Assembly: GCA_902559305.1 (NCBI GenBank)
Contig: CACEHK010000004.1
Location: 1-52,921 of the forward strand
Reading direction: 5' to 3'
DNA from: an uncultured Pelagibacteraceae bacterium
GTDB lineage: Bacteria; Pseudomonadota; Alphaproteobacteria; Pelagibacterales; Pelagibacteraceae
DNA length: 52,921 nt
How positions within the stretch are numbered: position 1 is the first letter of the stretch; the number at the start of each line of letters is the position of its first letter. The notes under the pieces were generated by a model that did no database searches, was not told the DNA's origin, and saw only the letters and a program-made list of their open reading frames with translations. Positions 12,097-19,392 of the stretch are shown one piece after another. The translations under genes and the position numbers were made by a program.

Positions 12097-13284
12097 ATGA
12101 AAAAATTATTAATTTCATTAATCTTTATTTTATTTTTATTTGAAAATTCTTTTGCAAACTTTAAGCAAATAAAAAAAAAAGCTTCAGTAAATAAACCAGA
12201 AATTATCTTTCCAATTCCTCAAAAACTTAATCGATGTCAAACAAAGCTTTATGCATCATCAGAAACATATAAAGTTAAACCAGTATTAAAAGTGTCGGCA
12301 CCAAAAGGCTATGGTTTAGATGATAGATTTGATTATGCTTTAAATAGATTTTCTAATTTTAGTTTCCCCTGTAGTGGTGGCGACTCTGTTTCATGTAAAC
12401 TAGTAGCAGAAATTATTTTAGAGTGGGCTAAAGCAGACGCTGCAAAGAGAACTGGCCCATCTGATGGGGAAGGAAGGCATTGGAATGATACTTTAACTGT
12501 TAATTTGTATGTAGCTTCCCCCATGATCGCAGCCTATTCATTTGCAAAACAAGTTATAGATATACCTGAAGCAGACGATGAAATCATTAAGAAATGGTTC
12601 AAAAAAATTGTAAAAAAAAATAAACATTTACTGTATGCAGAAACTTATGATTATGGAGGAGCAAGCGGAACTCCCAAGAGAGCCCATAACCATGCACTGT
12701 CTTCTGCTGTTGCTCACATGGAGTTAGGAGTTTTATTAAATGATAACAAGTTATTTAGAAAAGCGTTTCTAAATTATGAAGCTGCAATAAAGTATCAAAG
12801 AAAAGATGGGAGCCTTCCAATTGAAGTTAGAAGAGGAGGAAGAGCTATGTTTTATCAAGGCAGAGCTATGAACGCACTAGCTGTCATAGCAATTATAGCC
12901 GAACACCAAGGATACAATATTTGGGAACTAGATTTTAAGGGTAAGAACTACCATAACCTTGTTAAATTTTTTATCGATTTTACAGAAAATCATGAAATTG
13001 TTTTCAAGTATGCTAAAGAAAACAGGTGGCCTGGTCCTGCTAAAAACTACAAAGTTCAAGACTTGAGATCAAATTCTGGAAGTAACTGGGGCTGGTTATA
13101 TGCTTATGCATCACGTTTTCCTGATCATGAGAATATAAAAAGATTAAAAAGATGGTCTGAAAATAAAAATGAACTTAATTCCTATCAAAGCAATATAGTT
13201 TATCAATATTTGAATATTGGAAAAAAGGGTTTTGGATCTGCTTCCTGGACAGTTATTGAACCAAATTGCCATTTTACTAAATAG
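12097..13284 (+). CDS. Secreted alginate-lyase-like protein (PL5-type fold)
   Basis: A 395-aa exported protein with signal peptide (cut near residue 20, NSFA|N). The alpha/alpha-barrel core resembles PL5 alginate lyase: [12 protein letters not shown] with N198-H199, then [21 protein letters not shown] with R246 and Y253. Known A1-III catalytic residues N191, H192, R239 and Y246 have the same spacing (offset 7), so the active site appears intact. In alginate producers AlgL sits in the periplasm and clears stray polymer. The uronate substrate is not proven: the family also acts on other polyuronates. It lies in a glycosyltransferase cluster and its end overlaps umuC by 8 bp. Confidence 0.72.
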
Positions 13285-14557
13285 CTTTTATTGTTGGTAG
13301 GGAATAGAAATCAGCTGTATCTATCCTGGAAGAATATTCTCTCTTCATATTCCATCTTTTTTGAACGCCAGCACTTGCAAGGCTTATAGCAGATCTACCG
13401 TATCTATAATTTGTATTGTCTATTGATTTCATTAAACTATTTATTTTTTCATCCTTTTCTGATGAAAATAAATTTTTTTTATCATCATCATTTGATAAAC
13501 TTGTTAATAGTACGCCTGCTTTTTGATAACGATAACCATTTTTAAAAATATTTTCTAAGGCAGATATAGCAGCTTTAACTATTTCAATACTATTATTTGT
13601 TGCAATTGGAAAATCGATTGTTTTCGAATTTGCATAGTATCCAAATTTACTTTGAAATGGACTTGTTCTAATAAAGATAGTTATTGATTTTGCAATTAAA
13701 GATTCAGATCTAATTTTTTCTGAAGCGTTAAGACAATAATTTGCTATAGCTTCTTTTAATTCTTGGAATTTTTCTATTCTTTGACCAAATGAACGTGATA
13801 CTACACAACTTTTTCTTTTTGTTGTAGTTTTTTCAAAATCGATACAAGCAATTCCTCTAAGCTCCATTGCAGTTCTAGAGCTTAAAACATTGGAACTTTT
13901 TTTAATCCAGGTATTAGAAATATTTTTTAATTGTTTTGCATTGTAAATTCCGTTTCGATGGTAAAATTTTGTTAATTGTCTACCAACTCCCCAAACATCA
14001 TTAATGTCTACTTTTTCTAATATTGGGTCAATATTTTCAATTCCAATTAAACTTGTAACACCAGTTTCTTTTTTTTTAGCAATATGATTTGCAACTTTGC
14101 TTAAGGTTTTTGTTTTGGCAATACCAATACTAGTTGGTATTCCAGTCCATTGTAAAACTATACTTCTAATTTCTTTACCAACATCCTCTATTTCATTATC
14201 AGAAAAATTTGATAAGTCTAAAAAAGCTTCATCAATTGAATAAATTTCTATATCAGAGTTAAATCTTTTTAGAGTTCTCATTACTCTTCTTGAAATATCT
14301 CCGTACAAAGAATAATTGGATGAAAAAACCTGAACGTTATTTTTAATAATAATATCTTTCGCTTTAAAATAAGGCTCTCCCATTTTTATTCCTAAAGCTT
14401 TTGCCTCATTAGATCGTGAAACAATACAACCATCATTATTTGATAAAACAACCACAGGTTTATTTTTTAATTTAGGGGTAAATAACGTTTCACATGAAAC
14501 ATAAAAAGAATTACAATCTACAAGTGCAATTTTTTTAGTATACTGAGTGTATGACAT
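13277..14557 (-). CDS. umuC: DNA polymerase V catalytic subunit (Y-family)
   Basis: Translesion DNA polymerase. The 426-aa length fits UmuC. Metal-binding carboxylates are D14 in [13 protein letters not shown] and D109-E110 in [12 protein letters not shown]. The palm motif [18 protein letters not shown] is characteristic of the UmuC branch rather than DinB. Later segments (VWGVGRQ, helix-hairpin-helix region, SRSFGQRI) continue the family pattern. Translation starts 22 bp inside the end of umuD, so the two are coupled as umuDC under the LexA box upstream of umuD. It overlaps the convergent PL5-like gene by 8 bp. Confidence 0.96.
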
Positions 14558-14930
14558 AAGTTACAACCCCCCAAATAAAAATATCTTGTTCTTCATTAAT
14601 TAAAATTCTATCTTCGTAATTTTTAGATCCAGATGTTAAAAATTTTTTATCTCGTTCTTGGATAAAACTTTTAACGACAAGCTCATCATGAACATTTGCT
14701 ATAACCGTTGAAAAGTTTTTAGGTTTTAAGCTTTTATCAACTAGCAATAAATCGCCATCATTTATACCAACACCGACCATTGATTTCCCTTGAACTCTTA
14801 TGATGAAGGTTGCCGGAACATTTTTTATTAAATGAATATTTAAGTCGATATCTTCCTCAATATAATCTGCTGCAGGTGATGGAAAACCTGCGCCAGCTTT
14901 GTGTAAATAATATGGTATTGTCAATTTCAT
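14535..14930 (-). CDS. umuD: UmuD, S24-family self-cleaving Pol V subunit
   Basis: LexA-like protein that cuts itself on RecA filaments and then joins UmuC. From the ATG at 14930 it has 131 aa. The autocleavage bond is A14-G15 ([10 protein letters not shown]), the nucleophile S50 in GKSMVG and the general base K87 in ELVVKSF; the S-to-K spacing of 37 equals that of E. coli UmuD (S60, K97). A longer frame starting with TTG at 14981 is rejected because that TTG is part of the -35 box and the frame would cross the promoter and LexA box. The GAACAAAATAAGAAC operator ends 4 bp before the ATG. Confidence 0.95.
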
Positions 14931-14934
14931 AAAT

Positions 14935-14949
14935 GTTCTTATTTTGTTC
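14935..14949 (-). promoter_or_regulatory. LexA (SOS) box of umuDC
   Basis: Read toward umuD the sequence is GAAC-AAAATAA-GAAC, a perfect match to the alphaproteobacterial LexA direct repeat GAAC-N7-GAAC (GTTC-N7-GTTC on the other strand). It lies 4 bp before the umuD ATG and just downstream of the -10 box, ideal for repression. Confidence 0.9.
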
Positions 14950-14954
14950 TTATT

Positions 14955-14981
14955 ATTATATAGATTATTCAATAGTGTCAA
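14955..14981 (-). promoter_or_regulatory. Sigma-70-type promoter of umuDC
   Basis: On the minus strand a perfect -35 TTGACA (14976-14981) is followed by a perfect -10 TATAAT (14955-14960) with a 15-bp spacer; an alternative TAATAA gives 17 bp. The consensus quality with a LexA box straight after it fits a strong, normally repressed promoter. Confidence 0.75.
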
Positions 14982-15005
14982 CTAGGTTGTGTTTTGAGTC
15001 TGTAA

Positions 15006-15034
15006 GTGAATCAAAAGTGAATCAAAACGTGAAC
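15006..15034. repeat. Tandem 11-bp repeats between umuDC and the nuclease gene
   Basis: GTGAATCAAAA occurs twice back to back (15006-15016, 15017-15027) and a third partial copy, GTGAAC, ends at 15034. This places GAAT-N7-GAAT-N8-GAAC on the plus strand, the same 11-bp period as the LexA direct repeat but with weaker half-sites. The repeats sit 25 bp upstream of the umuD -35 box. Function unknown. Confidence 0.7.
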
Positions 15035-15101
15035 ATCCAAACTACATTTTGTGCCCTTGTGGATAACTTAAACCAGAGATAGTTTAAATTTCATACCAAA
15101 A

Positions 15102-15557
15102 ATGAAAAATCTTTTTTTAATATTATTTATAAGCTTACTGTGGATCAATGCTTCTTCAGCAAATAGTCTTAAAATTGTAGATGGTGATACAATCGTTTTA
15201 AATGGTGAAAAGATACGTTTTGAGGGCATTGATACGCCAGAGTTAAAGCAAACTTGTTTGAAAGATAACGAGGAAGTAAACTGTGGAATGCGTGCAAAGA
15301 TGTTATTAGTTAAAAAGATTGGAAACAATATACCAATGTGTATAGGAAAAAAGAAAGATTTTTACAAAAGGACACTTGCCGAATGCTTTGTTAATGGTGA
15401 AAGTTTATCAAAGTTTTTGGTTAGAAGAGGATATGCATTTGCTTATAGAAAATATTCAAAAAAATTCATTAAAGATGAAAATTTTGCAAAAGCAAATAAA
15501 TTAGGAATGTGGTCAATGATCTTTCAATATCCTTGGGATTTTAGAAAAGGATTATAA
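15102..15557 (+). CDS. Secreted staphylococcal-nuclease-like (SNase) endonuclease
   Basis: A 151-aa protein with an N-terminal signal peptide (cut around residue 20, ASSA|N) and an SNase (OB-fold) domain. Residues aligning with the catalytic set of micrococcal nuclease are present: D29 in VDGDT, R39 and D44/E47 in RFEGIDTPE, and R90 in YKRTLAEC. The intact set predicts Ca-dependent cleavage of DNA/RNA in the periplasm or outside, perhaps to scavenge phosphate and nucleotides. Two extra cysteine pairs may form disulfides. It is divergent from umuDC; an imperfect hairpin (TTAAAC/GTTTAA, 15068-15087) lies in its leader. The GFA-family gene follows after 17 bp. Confidence 0.87.
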   Translation: MKNLFLILFISLLWINASSANSLKIVDGDTIVLNGEKIRFEGIDTPELKQTCLKDNEEVNCGMRAKMLLVKKIGNNIPMCIGKKKDFYKRTLAECFVNGESLSKFLVRRGYAFAYRKYSKKFIKDENFAKANKLGMWSMIFQYPWDFRKGL

Positions 15558-15574
15558 AAAAATAAAGGAGAAAA

Positions 15575-15943
15575 ATGAAAAAACTAACATGTCATTGTGG
15601 AGGAGTGGAAGCAGAAGTCAATGTTCCACAAAAAGGATTTGAAAAAGTTTTGCGTTGTAATTGTTCTATCTGTAAAAGAAAGGGATATATTATAGGAGTG
15701 GTAGGACCAGATGATTTCAAGCTTATTAAAGGAAAAGAACTTTTAAAACTTTATCAATTTTACACAAAGACTGCTCAGCACTACTTTTGTTCAAATTGTG
15801 GTATTCATACTCACAATAGACCAAGAATTAATCCAAAAATATATGGAATAAATATTGCTTGTGTAGAAGGCATCAACCCATTTGACATAGCAAATGTTCC
15901 AGTTAGTGACGGAGAAAACCACGCATTAGATCAAAAAAAATAG
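15575..15943 (+). CDS. GFA-family (glutathione-dependent formaldehyde-activating-like) zinc protein
   Basis: A 122-aa Mss4-like-fold protein. Zinc-binding cysteines of the GFA family are all present: C6 and C8 in CHCGG, C28, C30 and C33 in CNCSICK, and C72 and C75 in FCSNCGIHT. Gfa itself was proposed to join formaldehyde with glutathione, but most family members have no proven substrate, so the name is by fold only. A good AAAGGAG ribosome binding site precedes the ATG. It lies between the secreted nuclease and the glycerate-kinase-like gene with short gaps, and is probably co-transcribed with them. Confidence 0.85.
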   Translation: MKKLTCHCGGVEAEVNVPQKGFEKVLRCNCSICKRKGYIIGVVGPDDFKLIKGKELLKLYQFYTKTAQHYFCSNCGIHTHNRPRINPKIYGINIACVEGINPFDIANVPVSDGENHALDQKK

Positions 15944-15949
15944 TTTAAT

Positions 15950-16873
15950 ATGAAATTAGTTAATGAGTGTTATATTAATGTAAAAAAAAATTGTTTTAAA
16001 TTTATAAAATCTCAAGAAACCAATACTAATAAGTTTAAAAACAAGGAAAGGATGTTAAAATCTTTTTTAATTCCATTATGTTTTTGGCTTACAAAAAAAA
16101 CTAGCAAAAAAAAACCTCTAATAATTGGTATAGCTGGTGGCCAAGGAACTGGCAAAACTACAATTACTTCAATAGTATCTTTGATTTTAATAAAATATTT
16201 TAAATTAAATGTTTTTAAAATTTCTATTGATGATTTTTATAAAACTAGAAAAGAAAGAAAATTTTTATCTTCAAATAAACATCCACTATTAATGATGAGA
16301 GGTGTTCCTGGAACACATGACTATAAAATTATAATCAATTTTTTAAAAAAAGTTAAAAGTAAAAAATTTAAAAGTTTAAAATTACCAAAATTTGATAAAT
16401 CAATAGACGATAGATATAAAAAAAAATACTGGTACGAAGTAAAATCTAGACCTGATATAATAATTTTAGAGGGGTGGTGCGTTGGTGCAAAAGCTCAAAA
16501 AATTTCAAGTATTATCAAACCAATAAATTCTTTAGAAAGAGTAAAAGATTCAAATTTAGTTTGGAGAAAATATGTTAATGACCAATTAAAAACTAATTAT
16601 AAAAATTTGTTTAAACATATAAATGAAATCATTTATCTTAGAGCAAATAATTTTAAATTGCTTCAAGAATGGCGAATAACACAAGAAAAGAGATTATGGT
16701 TAAAATCAACAAACAAAAAAAATTTAAAAATTATGAGTAGAGGTGATATTATAAACTTTATGCAGACTTACCAACGAATTACACAAAATATGTTTAAAGA
16801 TGTGCCAAAATATGCCTCGATAATAATGAAATTAAATAGTAATCATCAAATTAGTTCGATTAAATTTAAATAA
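15950..16873 (+). CDS. D-glycerate 3-kinase-like P-loop kinase
   Basis: A 307-aa P-loop kinase related to uridine/phosphoribulokinases. GGQGTGKTT (residues 63-71) is the Walker A motif, SIDDFYKTR (about 92-100) the base/metal motif, and RGVPGTHD (117-124) plus LEGWCVGA are typical of the plant-type D-glycerate 3-kinase (GLYK) group. Such an enzyme would feed glycerate into 3-phosphoglycerate. The kinase fold is certain; the substrate is inferred from the RGVPGTHD motif. It follows the GFA gene by 6 bp and the TolC-family gene starts directly after its stop. Confidence 0.75.
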   Translation: MKLVNECYINVKKNCFKFIKSQETNTNKFKNKERMLKSFLIPLCFWLTKKTSKKKPLIIGIAGGQGTGKTTITSIVSLILIKYFKLNVFKISIDDFYKTRKERKFLSSNKHPLLMMRGVPGTHDYKIIINFLKKVKSKKFKSLKLPKFDKSIDDRYKKKYWYEVKSRPDIIILEGWCVGAKAQKISSIIKPINSLERVKDSNLVWRKYVNDQLKTNYKNLFKHINEIIYLRANNFKLLQEWRITQEKRLWLKSTNKKNLKIMSRGDIINFMQTYQRITQNMFKDVPKYASIIMKLNSNHQISSIKFK

Positions 16874-18169
16874 ATGAAAAAAATAATTTTAATTTTAGTT
16901 TCGTTGGTTTTTTTTATACCAAAAGTTTTCGCAATAACACTTTCTGAAGCACTTATTCAAGCTTATCAAAACAATCCAGAATTAAATGCTGAAAGAGAAA
17001 ATATCAAAGTTTCAGAAGAAGAATTAAATATTGCAATAGGAAATTATCTGCCAACGCTAACATTAAGTGGAAGCAAAAGTAAAGAAGACACAAATAAACT
17101 TACTAATCAATCAGGGGGAGACGCTTCAATATCAGATGTTGATCCATTATCAACCTCAATAAAAGTCGAACAAACCTTATTAGATTTTGGAAGAAATGCA
17201 GAATATGAAAAAAATAAAATTGGTATTAATCTTGCAAAGGCAAAACTATTAAAAAAAGAACAAAATATATTTTATAAAGCAGTAGAAGCTTATACTGGCG
17301 TAATTTTATCAAATGAAAAATTAAAAATTAATCAAAGCAATCTTAATTTATTAGAAAGACAAGTTGAGACCGATAGAATTAGACTAGAAAGAGGCCAATT
17401 AACTTTAGCAGATGTTGCACAATCCGAATCTTCTTTAGCTGAAGCCCAAGCAAAATTTATACAAGCTCAAAATGAAGTTTTAACAAGCAAATTGAATTAT
17501 GAAAATATTATTGGATCACTGTCCAACTCAAGTTTATTGGAAAAAAATTCAAAAATAAATGTTGAAATTCCAGGAAATTTAATTTCTGCGATTGAATTAT
17601 CAAAAAATAATAATCCAGATTTAACTATCGCTAAACTAGAATATGAACAATCTAAAAAAGATACTGTAATGGCAAAATCAGATTTATCTCCAACTGCAAT
17701 ATTATCTTTTGAAAGATCTTACAATGAAGATTTAAGCGCTACCTATGACGAAAGAGAAAAAGATGTGTTAAAAGCCACTTTGTCTTGGCCATTCTATTCA
17801 GGAGGTAAAAATAGAGCAATACATAAAAAAAATAAAAGTTTACAATCCAGAACAAGATTGCTTTTGGACAACACAATTAAAACTAATGAAACTAATGTTG
17901 CTAGCGCCTGGTCAAATTTGCAATCAAATAAAAGCTTATTAAATTCAGTTGAACTTCAAGTAAAGGCTGCAGAAATTGCAAATGAAGGAATTACTGCAGA
18001 ATATGAAAGTGGAGTAGGAAGAACTACTTTAGAGGTAATCCAATCAAATCTATTTTTGCTAAATGCTCAAATTTCTTTAGCTAATTCCAAAAGAAATTTT
18101 CTTCTTTCCCAATTTAATCTTTTGAAGACAGTTGGGTTACTTAACAGCGACTATTTAAACATTAAATAA
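16874..18169 (+). CDS. TolC-family outer membrane efflux protein
   Basis: A 431-aa outer-membrane channel component with a signal peptide (cut near residue 20, VFA|ITL). Two similar halves of long coiled helices are visible, starting TLSEALIQAYQNNPELNAERE and LISAIELSKNNNPDLTIAKLE. The GGKN...R segment and the LEVIQSNLFLLNAQISLANSKRN helix are typical of TolC from type I secretion/efflux. No membrane-fusion or ABC/RND partner is adjacent, so it likely serves systems encoded elsewhere. It starts immediately after the glycerate-kinase-like gene, ending an operon before recA. Confidence 0.92.
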   Translation: MKKIILILVSLVFFIPKVFAITLSEALIQAYQNNPELNAERENIKVSEEELNIAIGNYLPTLTLSGSKSKEDTNKLTNQSGGDASISDVDPLSTSIKVEQTLLDFGRNAEYEKNKIGINLAKAKLLKKEQNIFYKAVEAYTGVILSNEKLKINQSNLNLLERQVETDRIRLERGQLTLADVAQSESSLAEAQAKFIQAQNEVLTSKLNYENIIGSLSNSSLLEKNSKINVEIPGNLISAIELSKNNNPDLTIAKLEYEQSKKDTVMAKSDLSPTAILSFERSYNEDLSATYDEREKDVLKATLSWPFYSGGKNRAIHKKNKSLQSRTRLLLDNTIKTNETNVASAWSNLQSNKSLLNSVELQVKAAEIANEGITAEYESGVGRTTLEVIQSNLFLLNAQISLANSKRNFLLSQFNLLKTVGLLNSDYLNIK

Positions 18170-18212
18170 ATCAACGTTTTTTTAACCTAATAAATATTTT
18201 TATTGCCAATGA

Positions 18213-18227
18213 GAACAAAATGTGTAC
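18213..18227 (+). promoter_or_regulatory. LexA (SOS) box of recA
   Basis: GAAC-AAAATGT-GTAC read toward recA differs from the umuD box by one base in the second half-site and shares the flanks AGAACAAAAT and ACAT. It lies 49 bp before the recA ATG. A promoter-like TTGCCA (18203-18208) and TACATT (18225-18230), 16 bp apart, flank and overlap it, so LexA bound here would block RNA polymerase. Confidence 0.75.
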
Positions 18228-18276
18228 ATTTAATGTATGATTCGACTGTTAAAAAACGTAAAAAAAAAGGCAAAAA

Positions 18277-19392
18277 ATGACAAAAAATAACTTAAAAGTG
18301 GTGAAATCCACAAAAGATAAAGAATTGGAAAATAAAGAGAAGAATAAAGCTTTAGAAGCAGCAATTAGCCAAATTACAGATAATTTTGGAAAAGGCTCTG
18401 TAATGAAATTAGGCCAACAAAAAGCTATGGATGTTGAGTCTATTTCAACAGGATCTCTAAGTTTAGACCTCGCTCTTGGTATTGGAGGGTTGCCAAAAGG
18501 AAGAATTGTTGAAATTTATGGACCAGAGTCGTCTGGGAAAACTACATTAGCTTTACAAGTTATAGCTGAAGCACAAAAAGCGGGTGGTATTTGTGGTTTT
18601 GTTGATGCAGAACACGCACTAGACCCAGTTTATGCAAAAAAATTAGGTGTTAATACTGAAGAGCTACTAATTTCTCAACCAGATACTGGTGAGCAGGCTT
18701 TGGAAATTACTGATACTTTAATCAAATCAGGATCAATGTCAGTTATCGTAGTTGATTCTGTTGCAGCATTAACCCCAAGAGCAGAAATTGAAGGAGATAT
18801 GGGGGATCATCATGTTGGTCTTCAAGCAAGATTAATGAGTCAGGCATTAAGAAAACTAACTGGATCAGTTTCTAGAACAAATACAATGGTTATATTTATT
18901 AACCAAATAAGAATGAAAATAGGTGTAATGTTTGGAAGTCCAGAAACAACCTCAGGAGGAAATTCACTTAAATTCTACTCATCAGTCAGAATGGACATAA
19001 GAAGAATAGGTGCAATCAAAGATAAAGAGGAGATCATTGGAAATGCAACTAGAGTAAAAGTCGTTAAAAATAAAGTTGCGCCACCATTTAAAGTAGTTGA
19101 ATTCGATTTAATGTATGGAAAAGGAATAAGCAAAACTGGTGAATTGATTGACCTGGGTGCGAAAGCAGATATTGTAGAAAAGTCAGGGGCATGGTACGCT
19201 TACAAGGGTGAAAAAATTGGTCAAGGAAAAGAAAATGCAAAATTATACCTTGAACAAAATCCTAAAGCTGCAGCAGAAATAGAAATGGCAATAAGAGAAA
19301 AAGCTGGTCTTATTTCTGAAAAAATTGAAGGAAATCCTATTGAAAAAGAAAAAGTAGAATCTGCAGAAGAAGTTCCTACAAAAAAAAATTAG
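18277..19392 (+). CDS. recA: Recombinase RecA
   Basis: ATP-dependent strand-exchange protein and co-protease for LexA and UmuD. Walker [11 protein letters not shown] is at residues 82-91; [22 protein letters not shown], loop L1/L2 segments ([34 protein letters not shown]) follow in order. At 371 aa it is slightly longer than E. coli RecA, with about 20 additional N-terminal residues rich in lysine and a short acidic tail. It stands alone between its LexA-box promoter and a strong hairpin terminator, so it is probably monocistronic and SOS-induced. Confidence 0.98.

Follow-up and report, generated by a model that had tools for sequence, protein, structure and literature searches.

The alphaproteobacterial LexA/SOS system is built on the direct repeat GTTC-N7-GTTC (PMC8565304, PMC3323433), and a minimal core SOS set consisting of lexA, recA, dinB and umuDC has been described (PMC8565304). 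In marine contigs, lexA has been noted after trpC (PMC2395257). Within a partial coverage of the literature that included PMC2395257, PMC4287501 and PMC9437464, no earlier account of LexA boxes in SAR11 was found. The present analysis concerns two such sites, one upstream of umuDC and one upstream of recA, in a 52,921-nucleotide (nt) stretch of DNA from an uncultured Pelagibacteraceae bacterium, hereafter the window. It forms contig 4 of a 52-contig assembly (genome G000; 1,084,652 bases, 82.8% complete), and its umuC is 93% identical to the umuC of an uncultured Pelagibacteraceae bacterium, which identifies the genome as SAR11.

The locus resembles the alphaproteobacterial LexA regulon in its half-site and spacing, in the two-domain LexA encoded by the genome and in the apparent targets lexA, recA and umuDC. 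Both sites very probably serve as operators for the LexA repressor of SAR11, and the comparison supports the view that this is the known alphaproteobacterial LexA system, now in SAR11. The SAR11 regulon departs from the described one in that its strict boxes appear to be limited to four promoters (as judged from two genomes), with uvrA apparently uncoupled and nrdAB and pgm included; the right half of its recA box is GTAC, and in the window's genus a facing GTACN7GTTC lies downstream of the lexA GAACN7GAAC. The set comes near to the minimal core set of PMC8565304, from which it differs by the addition of a class I ribonucleotide reductase promoter.

Paired sites upstream of umuDC and recA

A sequence-only reading of the window, made without database searches, had proposed a GAAC-N7-GAAC repeat before umuDC and a GAAC-N7-GTAC site before recA as instances of the alphaproteobacterial LexA pattern. 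Both lie exactly where it placed them (Table 1), and the pattern matches the published motif (PMC8565304, PMC3323433). With 3-5 nt of flank included, the two boxes are identical at 19 of the 23 compared positions. The reading also gave them the same flanks and the same first spacer bases, AAAAT; some relatives of umuD have C or G as the fifth of these bases.

The conservation in relatives on which that reading had staked its case is borne out. Named SAR11 loci with UmuC numbered 80, of which 79 have a readable umuD start and 68 reach recA; the umuD box is kept in 79/79 and the recA box in 68/68. In the alignments of these loci the half-sites are 100% conserved, the spacers 95-97% and the remaining aligned regions 77-78%. 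The umuD spacer occurs as AAAATAA, AAAACAA, AAAAGAA, AAAATAG and AAAGCAA, and the second half-site of recA is GTAC throughout the 68 loci. Among 21 close genomes from two families, the umuD box is present in 18/18 loci and the recA box in all 16 loci with upstream sequence (17 loci in total); other genera carry the umuD box in 14/14 loci. It is still present in seven genomes of one genus (g7) in which umuDC lies away from the RF01827 element that adjoins it in the window.

Probable core promoters for umuD and recA can be proposed from sequence and conservation. Of 79 aligned rows, at least 97% have the TTGA of the umuD -35 and at least 85% the C after it, and TATAAA stands immediately upstream of the umuD box in several relatives. 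The umuD box begins 3 nt past one likely -10 (14958-14953) and reaches to within 4 nt of the ATG, so LexA sitting there would cover the probable start point and the leader. The recA box lies in the spacer of its probable promoter with its right half overlapping the -10 TACATT, an overlap that may be the reason for the conserved GTAC. Between this box and the recA ATG, a GANTC site (TGATTCG) stands in the extended GcrA context named in PMC7987155 and is found in 68/68 named loci; it is a possible second, cell-cycle input to recA. In the six recA regions of the other family (f2) that were checked, GANTC occurs solely 100-139 nt upstream of the frame start.

In undamaged cells, LexA would hold down both operons: at umuDC its site covers the probable start point and the leader, and at recA it lies between the probable -35 and -10. 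RecA filaments on single-stranded DNA would then lead to self-cleavage of LexA and the opening of both promoters, and RecA would also mature UmuD for DNA polymerase V. We infer this binding, repression and induction from the sites, the lexA gene, their conservation and their distribution in the genomes. Residues A14-G15 of UmuD lie opposite the cleavage site of E. coli UmuD, and the Ser and Lys are aligned too (against 8gmt_B and 1umu_A); we take these residues to have their usual roles in self-cleavage. As the cleavage-site glycine, Ser and Lys align with E. coli UmuD, RecA-assisted maturation of UmuD is likely. This self-cleaving-type UmuD adjoins a UmuC with a DUF4113 tail, the make-up predicted for a DNA polymerase V (UmuD2C), and umuC scores 414.7 bits in NF002955, slightly below the curated NCBIfam cut-off of 431.

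Table 1. Features of the umuDC-recA region, with positions in the window (aa, amino acids).
Feature	Position	Strand	Details
Predicted LexA box of umuDC, GAACAAAATAAGAAC	14935..14949	(-)	GAAC-N7-GAAC; 4 nt upstream of umuD ATG
Predicted LexA box of recA, GAACAAAATGTGTAC	18213..18227	(+)	GAAC-N7-GTAC; 49 nt upstream of recA ATG (18277)
Probable umuD core promoter	14953..14981	(-)	-35 TTGACA 14981-14976; -10 at 14958-14953; 17-bp spacing
Alternative umuD -10, TATAAT	14960-14955	(-)	15-bp spacing from -35
Probable recA core promoter	18203..18230	(+)	-35 TTGCCA 18203-18208; 16 bp; -10 TACATT 18225-18230
TGATTCG, GANTC site in extended GcrA context	18238..18244	(+)	between recA box and ATG
umuD	14535..14930	(-)	131 aa; ATG 14930-14928; PF00717 E 1.6e-22; NF007621 138.1 bits (cut-off 110)
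umuC	13277..14557	(-)	426 aa; pol V catalytic subunit, DUF4113 tail; PF00817 (IMS), PF11799 (IMS_C), PF13438
recA	18277..19392	(+)	371 aa; PF00154 E 4.6e-143; TIGR02012 561.1 bits
RF01827 SAR11_0636 element	14985..15074	(+)	Rfam 102.6 bits (gathering 67); full-length match
GANTC sites in element	starts 14996, 15008, 15019		
DnaA-type box in element, TGTGGATAA	15058-15066		

lexA and the extent of the proposed strict-box regulon

A lexA gene, without which the sequence-only reading would have fallen, is present in the window's genome (G000:C7; TIGR00498 171.9 bits, cut-off 110.95), and its product has winged-helix and S24 domains (PF01726, PF00717). The gene occurs in 18 of the 21 close genomes and in 11/11 of the more complete ones. 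The Ala-Gly and Ser of the product align with LexA 3k2z; the sequence also has the Lys (mlKrl), which however stands opposite an Ala of the 3k2z chain. We count the autoproteolysis residues as present, assuming that the aligned residues have these roles.

The box before lexA that had been anticipated is found in every readable locus, namely 18/18 loci of the close genomes in two families and, in other genera, all 14 that could be read out of 15. For the window's genus, the operator consists of GAACN7GAAC followed downstream by a facing GTACN7GTTC, an arrangement seen in 10/10 loci of the genus and 0/8 loci of f2; other genera of the same family (f1) have the second site in 9/14 loci. The gap between the two 15-mers varies (6 bases in 3 and 7 bases in 7 genus loci) while both inner gaps are always 7, which argues that each 15-mer is a binding unit.

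The extent of the regulon was surveyed with strict boxes without mismatches, next to which weaker LexA sites may exist, and a match was counted as outside if it did not fall within a reading frame of 120 aa or more. Two single-contig genomes, G012 and G090, hold 20 and 23 strict matches. In each, six lie outside such frames: three that overlap one another at lexA and one each at recA, umuD and pgm-nrdA, four promoters in all. The remaining 14 and 17 lie within such frames. The frame test is mechanical: in G013, from the other family, the true umuD and lexA boxes scored as inside owing to frames extended upstream, and upstream sites in G012 and G090 could be likewise concealed, for example L273, 29 nt into its frame. 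G013 has 26 strict matches, with boxes at lexA, recA (two) and umuD, and one match (L322) that is outside the 120-aa frames but within a 102-aa frame. In G000, five of the 21 strict matches are at umuD, recA, lexA (two) and nrdA/pgm, and the other 16 fall within other reading frames, one of them spanning the start of a glnA-like frame. Matches that recur in purF (G000, G004 and G012) lie within the coding frame and were read as coding constraint.

For uvrA, where a further site had been suggested, the search came out negative: no GWWC-N7-GWWC was found within 200 nt upstream in any of the 15 readable regions among 17 full-length loci. The strict-box regulon looks very small. It comprises lexA, which has two or three boxes, together with recA and umuDC; the genus adds the divergent pgm-nrdAB promoter.

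The pgm-nrdA member lies outside the window. The site is GAACATTTATAGAAC when written in the sense of pgm (phosphoglucomutase/phosphomannomutase), and in the window's genome a LexA-type box occupies G000:C2:83150-83164 in the divergent region between pgm and nrdA. Fifty-six pgm-nrdA loci were inspected (the top 30 matches, 20 chosen along the rest of the ranking and another 6), five of which were unreadable; the box is kept in 49 of the 51 genus genomes read, and the two misses have one altered half-site each. The nrdA gene (G012 copy) encodes the alpha subunit of a class I ribonucleotide reductase (NF006577, 1012 bits) and is followed by the gene of the beta subunit (PF00268). Of 151 genus genomes, 121 gave a match to this nrdA. 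The 30 genomes without a match include the 96% complete G004, and many are incomplete; some of them may use another ribonucleotide reductase. One genome, G164, carries boxes at umuD, recA, nrdA and lexA, and we liken it to strain HTCC1062 on the grounds that its element coordinates fit those of PMC2704228.

Published expression and rival explanations

In HTCC1062, infection by phage HTVC027P raises lexA, recA, umuD and umuC, together with host nrdA (3.12- to 8.87-fold), host nrdB (2.53- to 5.83-fold) and all three excinuclease subunits, uvrABC (PMC12753301). Under iron stress in the same strain, lexA, recA and mucA belong to a late cluster (PMC2864753).

Several of these observations speak against a LexA regulon read from the boxes. 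Induction by phage or iron stress is not a direct DNA-damage response, and since uvrABC rise while the readable uvrA regions are box-free, strict boxes cannot explain the whole of the phage response. The recA site has GTAC where GAAC is expected. Genome-wide, GAACN7GWAC occurs 21 times against 37 for the reversed control, that is, without enrichment, and the reversed control outnumbers the strict pattern in G012, G090 and G013 as well. This lack of excess, together with the 0.93 occurrences expected by chance in the window and the 26 of 100 shuffled windows that held at least two sites, would be in keeping with an AT-rich genome that simply yields such 15-mers, two of which happen to precede SOS genes. 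The bare pattern by itself proves nothing; position and conservation are the evidence. In 20,000 shuffles of the intergenic regions, a strand-correct site arose in 0.65% for umuD and 0.11% for recA, and both arose at once in 0/20,000. Outside large frames the pattern is confined to the four promoters in two genomes, and the sites are retained in 147/147 readable orthologous regions, a degree of conservation that refutes chance; we give this explanation practically no credence. A second candidate is another direct-repeat-binding regulator, or a UmuD-like repressor, for which the sites would be operators in place of LexA. The assignment to LexA is drawn from sequence, and the S24 superfamily does contain other repressors, UmuDAb and HdiR (PMC8565304). 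However, lexA bears the same boxes in every readable locus, the motif is identical to the published alphaproteobacterial one, and Pfam finds no domain beyond Peptidase_S24 in the 131-aa UmuD. Such a regulator is accordingly regarded as very unlikely, and LexA is retained as the predicted ligand of the umuDC and recA sites.

The nrdA/pgm site is open to a more substantial doubt. It may not function with LexA at all: NrdR, sensing nucleotide depletion, would drive nrdAB in phage infection, and the box would serve pgm or another role. Two palindromes in the nrdA leader, downstream of the box, resemble what we take to be the NrdR motif. The box reads in the sense of pgm, with 50-75 nt between it and pgm in four genomes; nrdA is 78-96 nt away. 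The f2 genomes are without this nrdA. The authors of the phage study ascribe the rise of nrdAB to the supply of deoxynucleotides (PMC12753301). Against this, a single base separates GAACATTTATAGAAC from the lexA box GAACTTTTATAGAAC, the site is preserved in nearly all of the genus genomes read, and nrdA and nrdB go up in the same infection as lexA, recA and umuDC (PMC12753301). We judge the alternative a real possibility, if somewhat doubtful, and LexA control of nrdAB is carried forward below as a conditional part of the regulon.

The RF01827 element beside the umuD promoter

Next to the umuD promoter, the window has a block that matches the covariance model of Rfam family RF01827. The family goes back to the SAR11_0636 small RNA ('sRNA') proposed in PMC2704228, where the main stem is without covariation. 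The 30 best copies from the genus all adjoin umuD, with umuD on the opposite strand. Twenty weak matches from other genera all have three GANTC sites 11-12 bp apart and keep GTGAACAT or a close form, usually with TGTGGATAA too. The helices fail to persist from genus to genus, and there is hardly any compensatory change. Among the 18 unique divergent copies, paired cells amount to 51% for P1, 79% for P2 and 59% for P3, compared with 86%, 96% and 85% in the genus, figures that stand without a shuffle control. Compensatory cells number 4 of 406 in other genera and 3 in the genus, and upkeep of helices P1-P3 by compensatory change was not found in other genera. P3 has a constant 3' side (TGTGG) and a drifting partner strand. 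The inner pairs of P2 consist of two copies of the near-palindrome TGAATCA.

The anchor used to extract the copies demanded the GANTC triad, GAACAT and TGTG, which makes the constancy of those letters partly a matter of construction; the drift of the helix partners is free of this bias. The anchor fitted 18/20 divergent and 78/79 genus copies. Of the two divergent misses, one lacks the DnaA-type box and the other has it on the other strand. Given that one side of a helix often changes and leaves the fixed other side unpaired, the element is probably a double-stranded DNA element rather than an RNA fold.

Ten runs of a Markov model gave GANTC pairs at this spacing about once per window and no triads. 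The window itself contains this triad only, and 240 kb sampled from G164 contain zero pairs. GANTC is under-represented in the window: there are 86 sites, where 10 first-order Markov runs average 131.8. A protein with a RAMA domain, presumably the mark of CcrM, was found in 19 of the 21 genomes, and Caulobacter alone matched among 14 controls; GcrA is present in G000.

In five loci of genera g7 and g8, the element lies between glycosyltransferase-like and GFA-like genes (identified by eye), with umuDC absent there. Seven g7 genomes have umuDC elsewhere and without an adjoining element, and five of the seven have a second element match elsewhere. It appears that umuDC moved into or out of the glycosyltransferase-GFA locus while the element stayed. 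A role as replication origin, considered in view of the DnaA-type box, was set aside: in G164 (twenty coarse samples) the cumulative GC-skew minimum is at the 395-kb sample and the element at 622 kb. Three further DnaA-type 9-mers in one G164 sample fall within genes, and an origin is not claimed.

A broader proposal, for which we see the prospects as evenly balanced, is that SOS in SAR11 has been cut to about four promoters with nrdAB directly coupled to LexA. The rise of nrdAB in phage infection would then be a side effect of SOS rather than a phage-directed or NrdR-driven one, and RF01827 would be a DNA element, made up of three CcrM-type sites in helical phase and a DnaA-type box, that abuts umuDC in some genera. 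If RF01827 is such an element, the database family would need correcting, and these genomes would have a candidate site linked to methylation or DnaA. The regulon would predict nucleotide supply as part of SOS and offer an alternative reading of the published phage transcriptome. SAR11 are among the most abundant cells of the ocean and have few regulators; a near-minimal LexA regulon would make theirs a testable SOS network.

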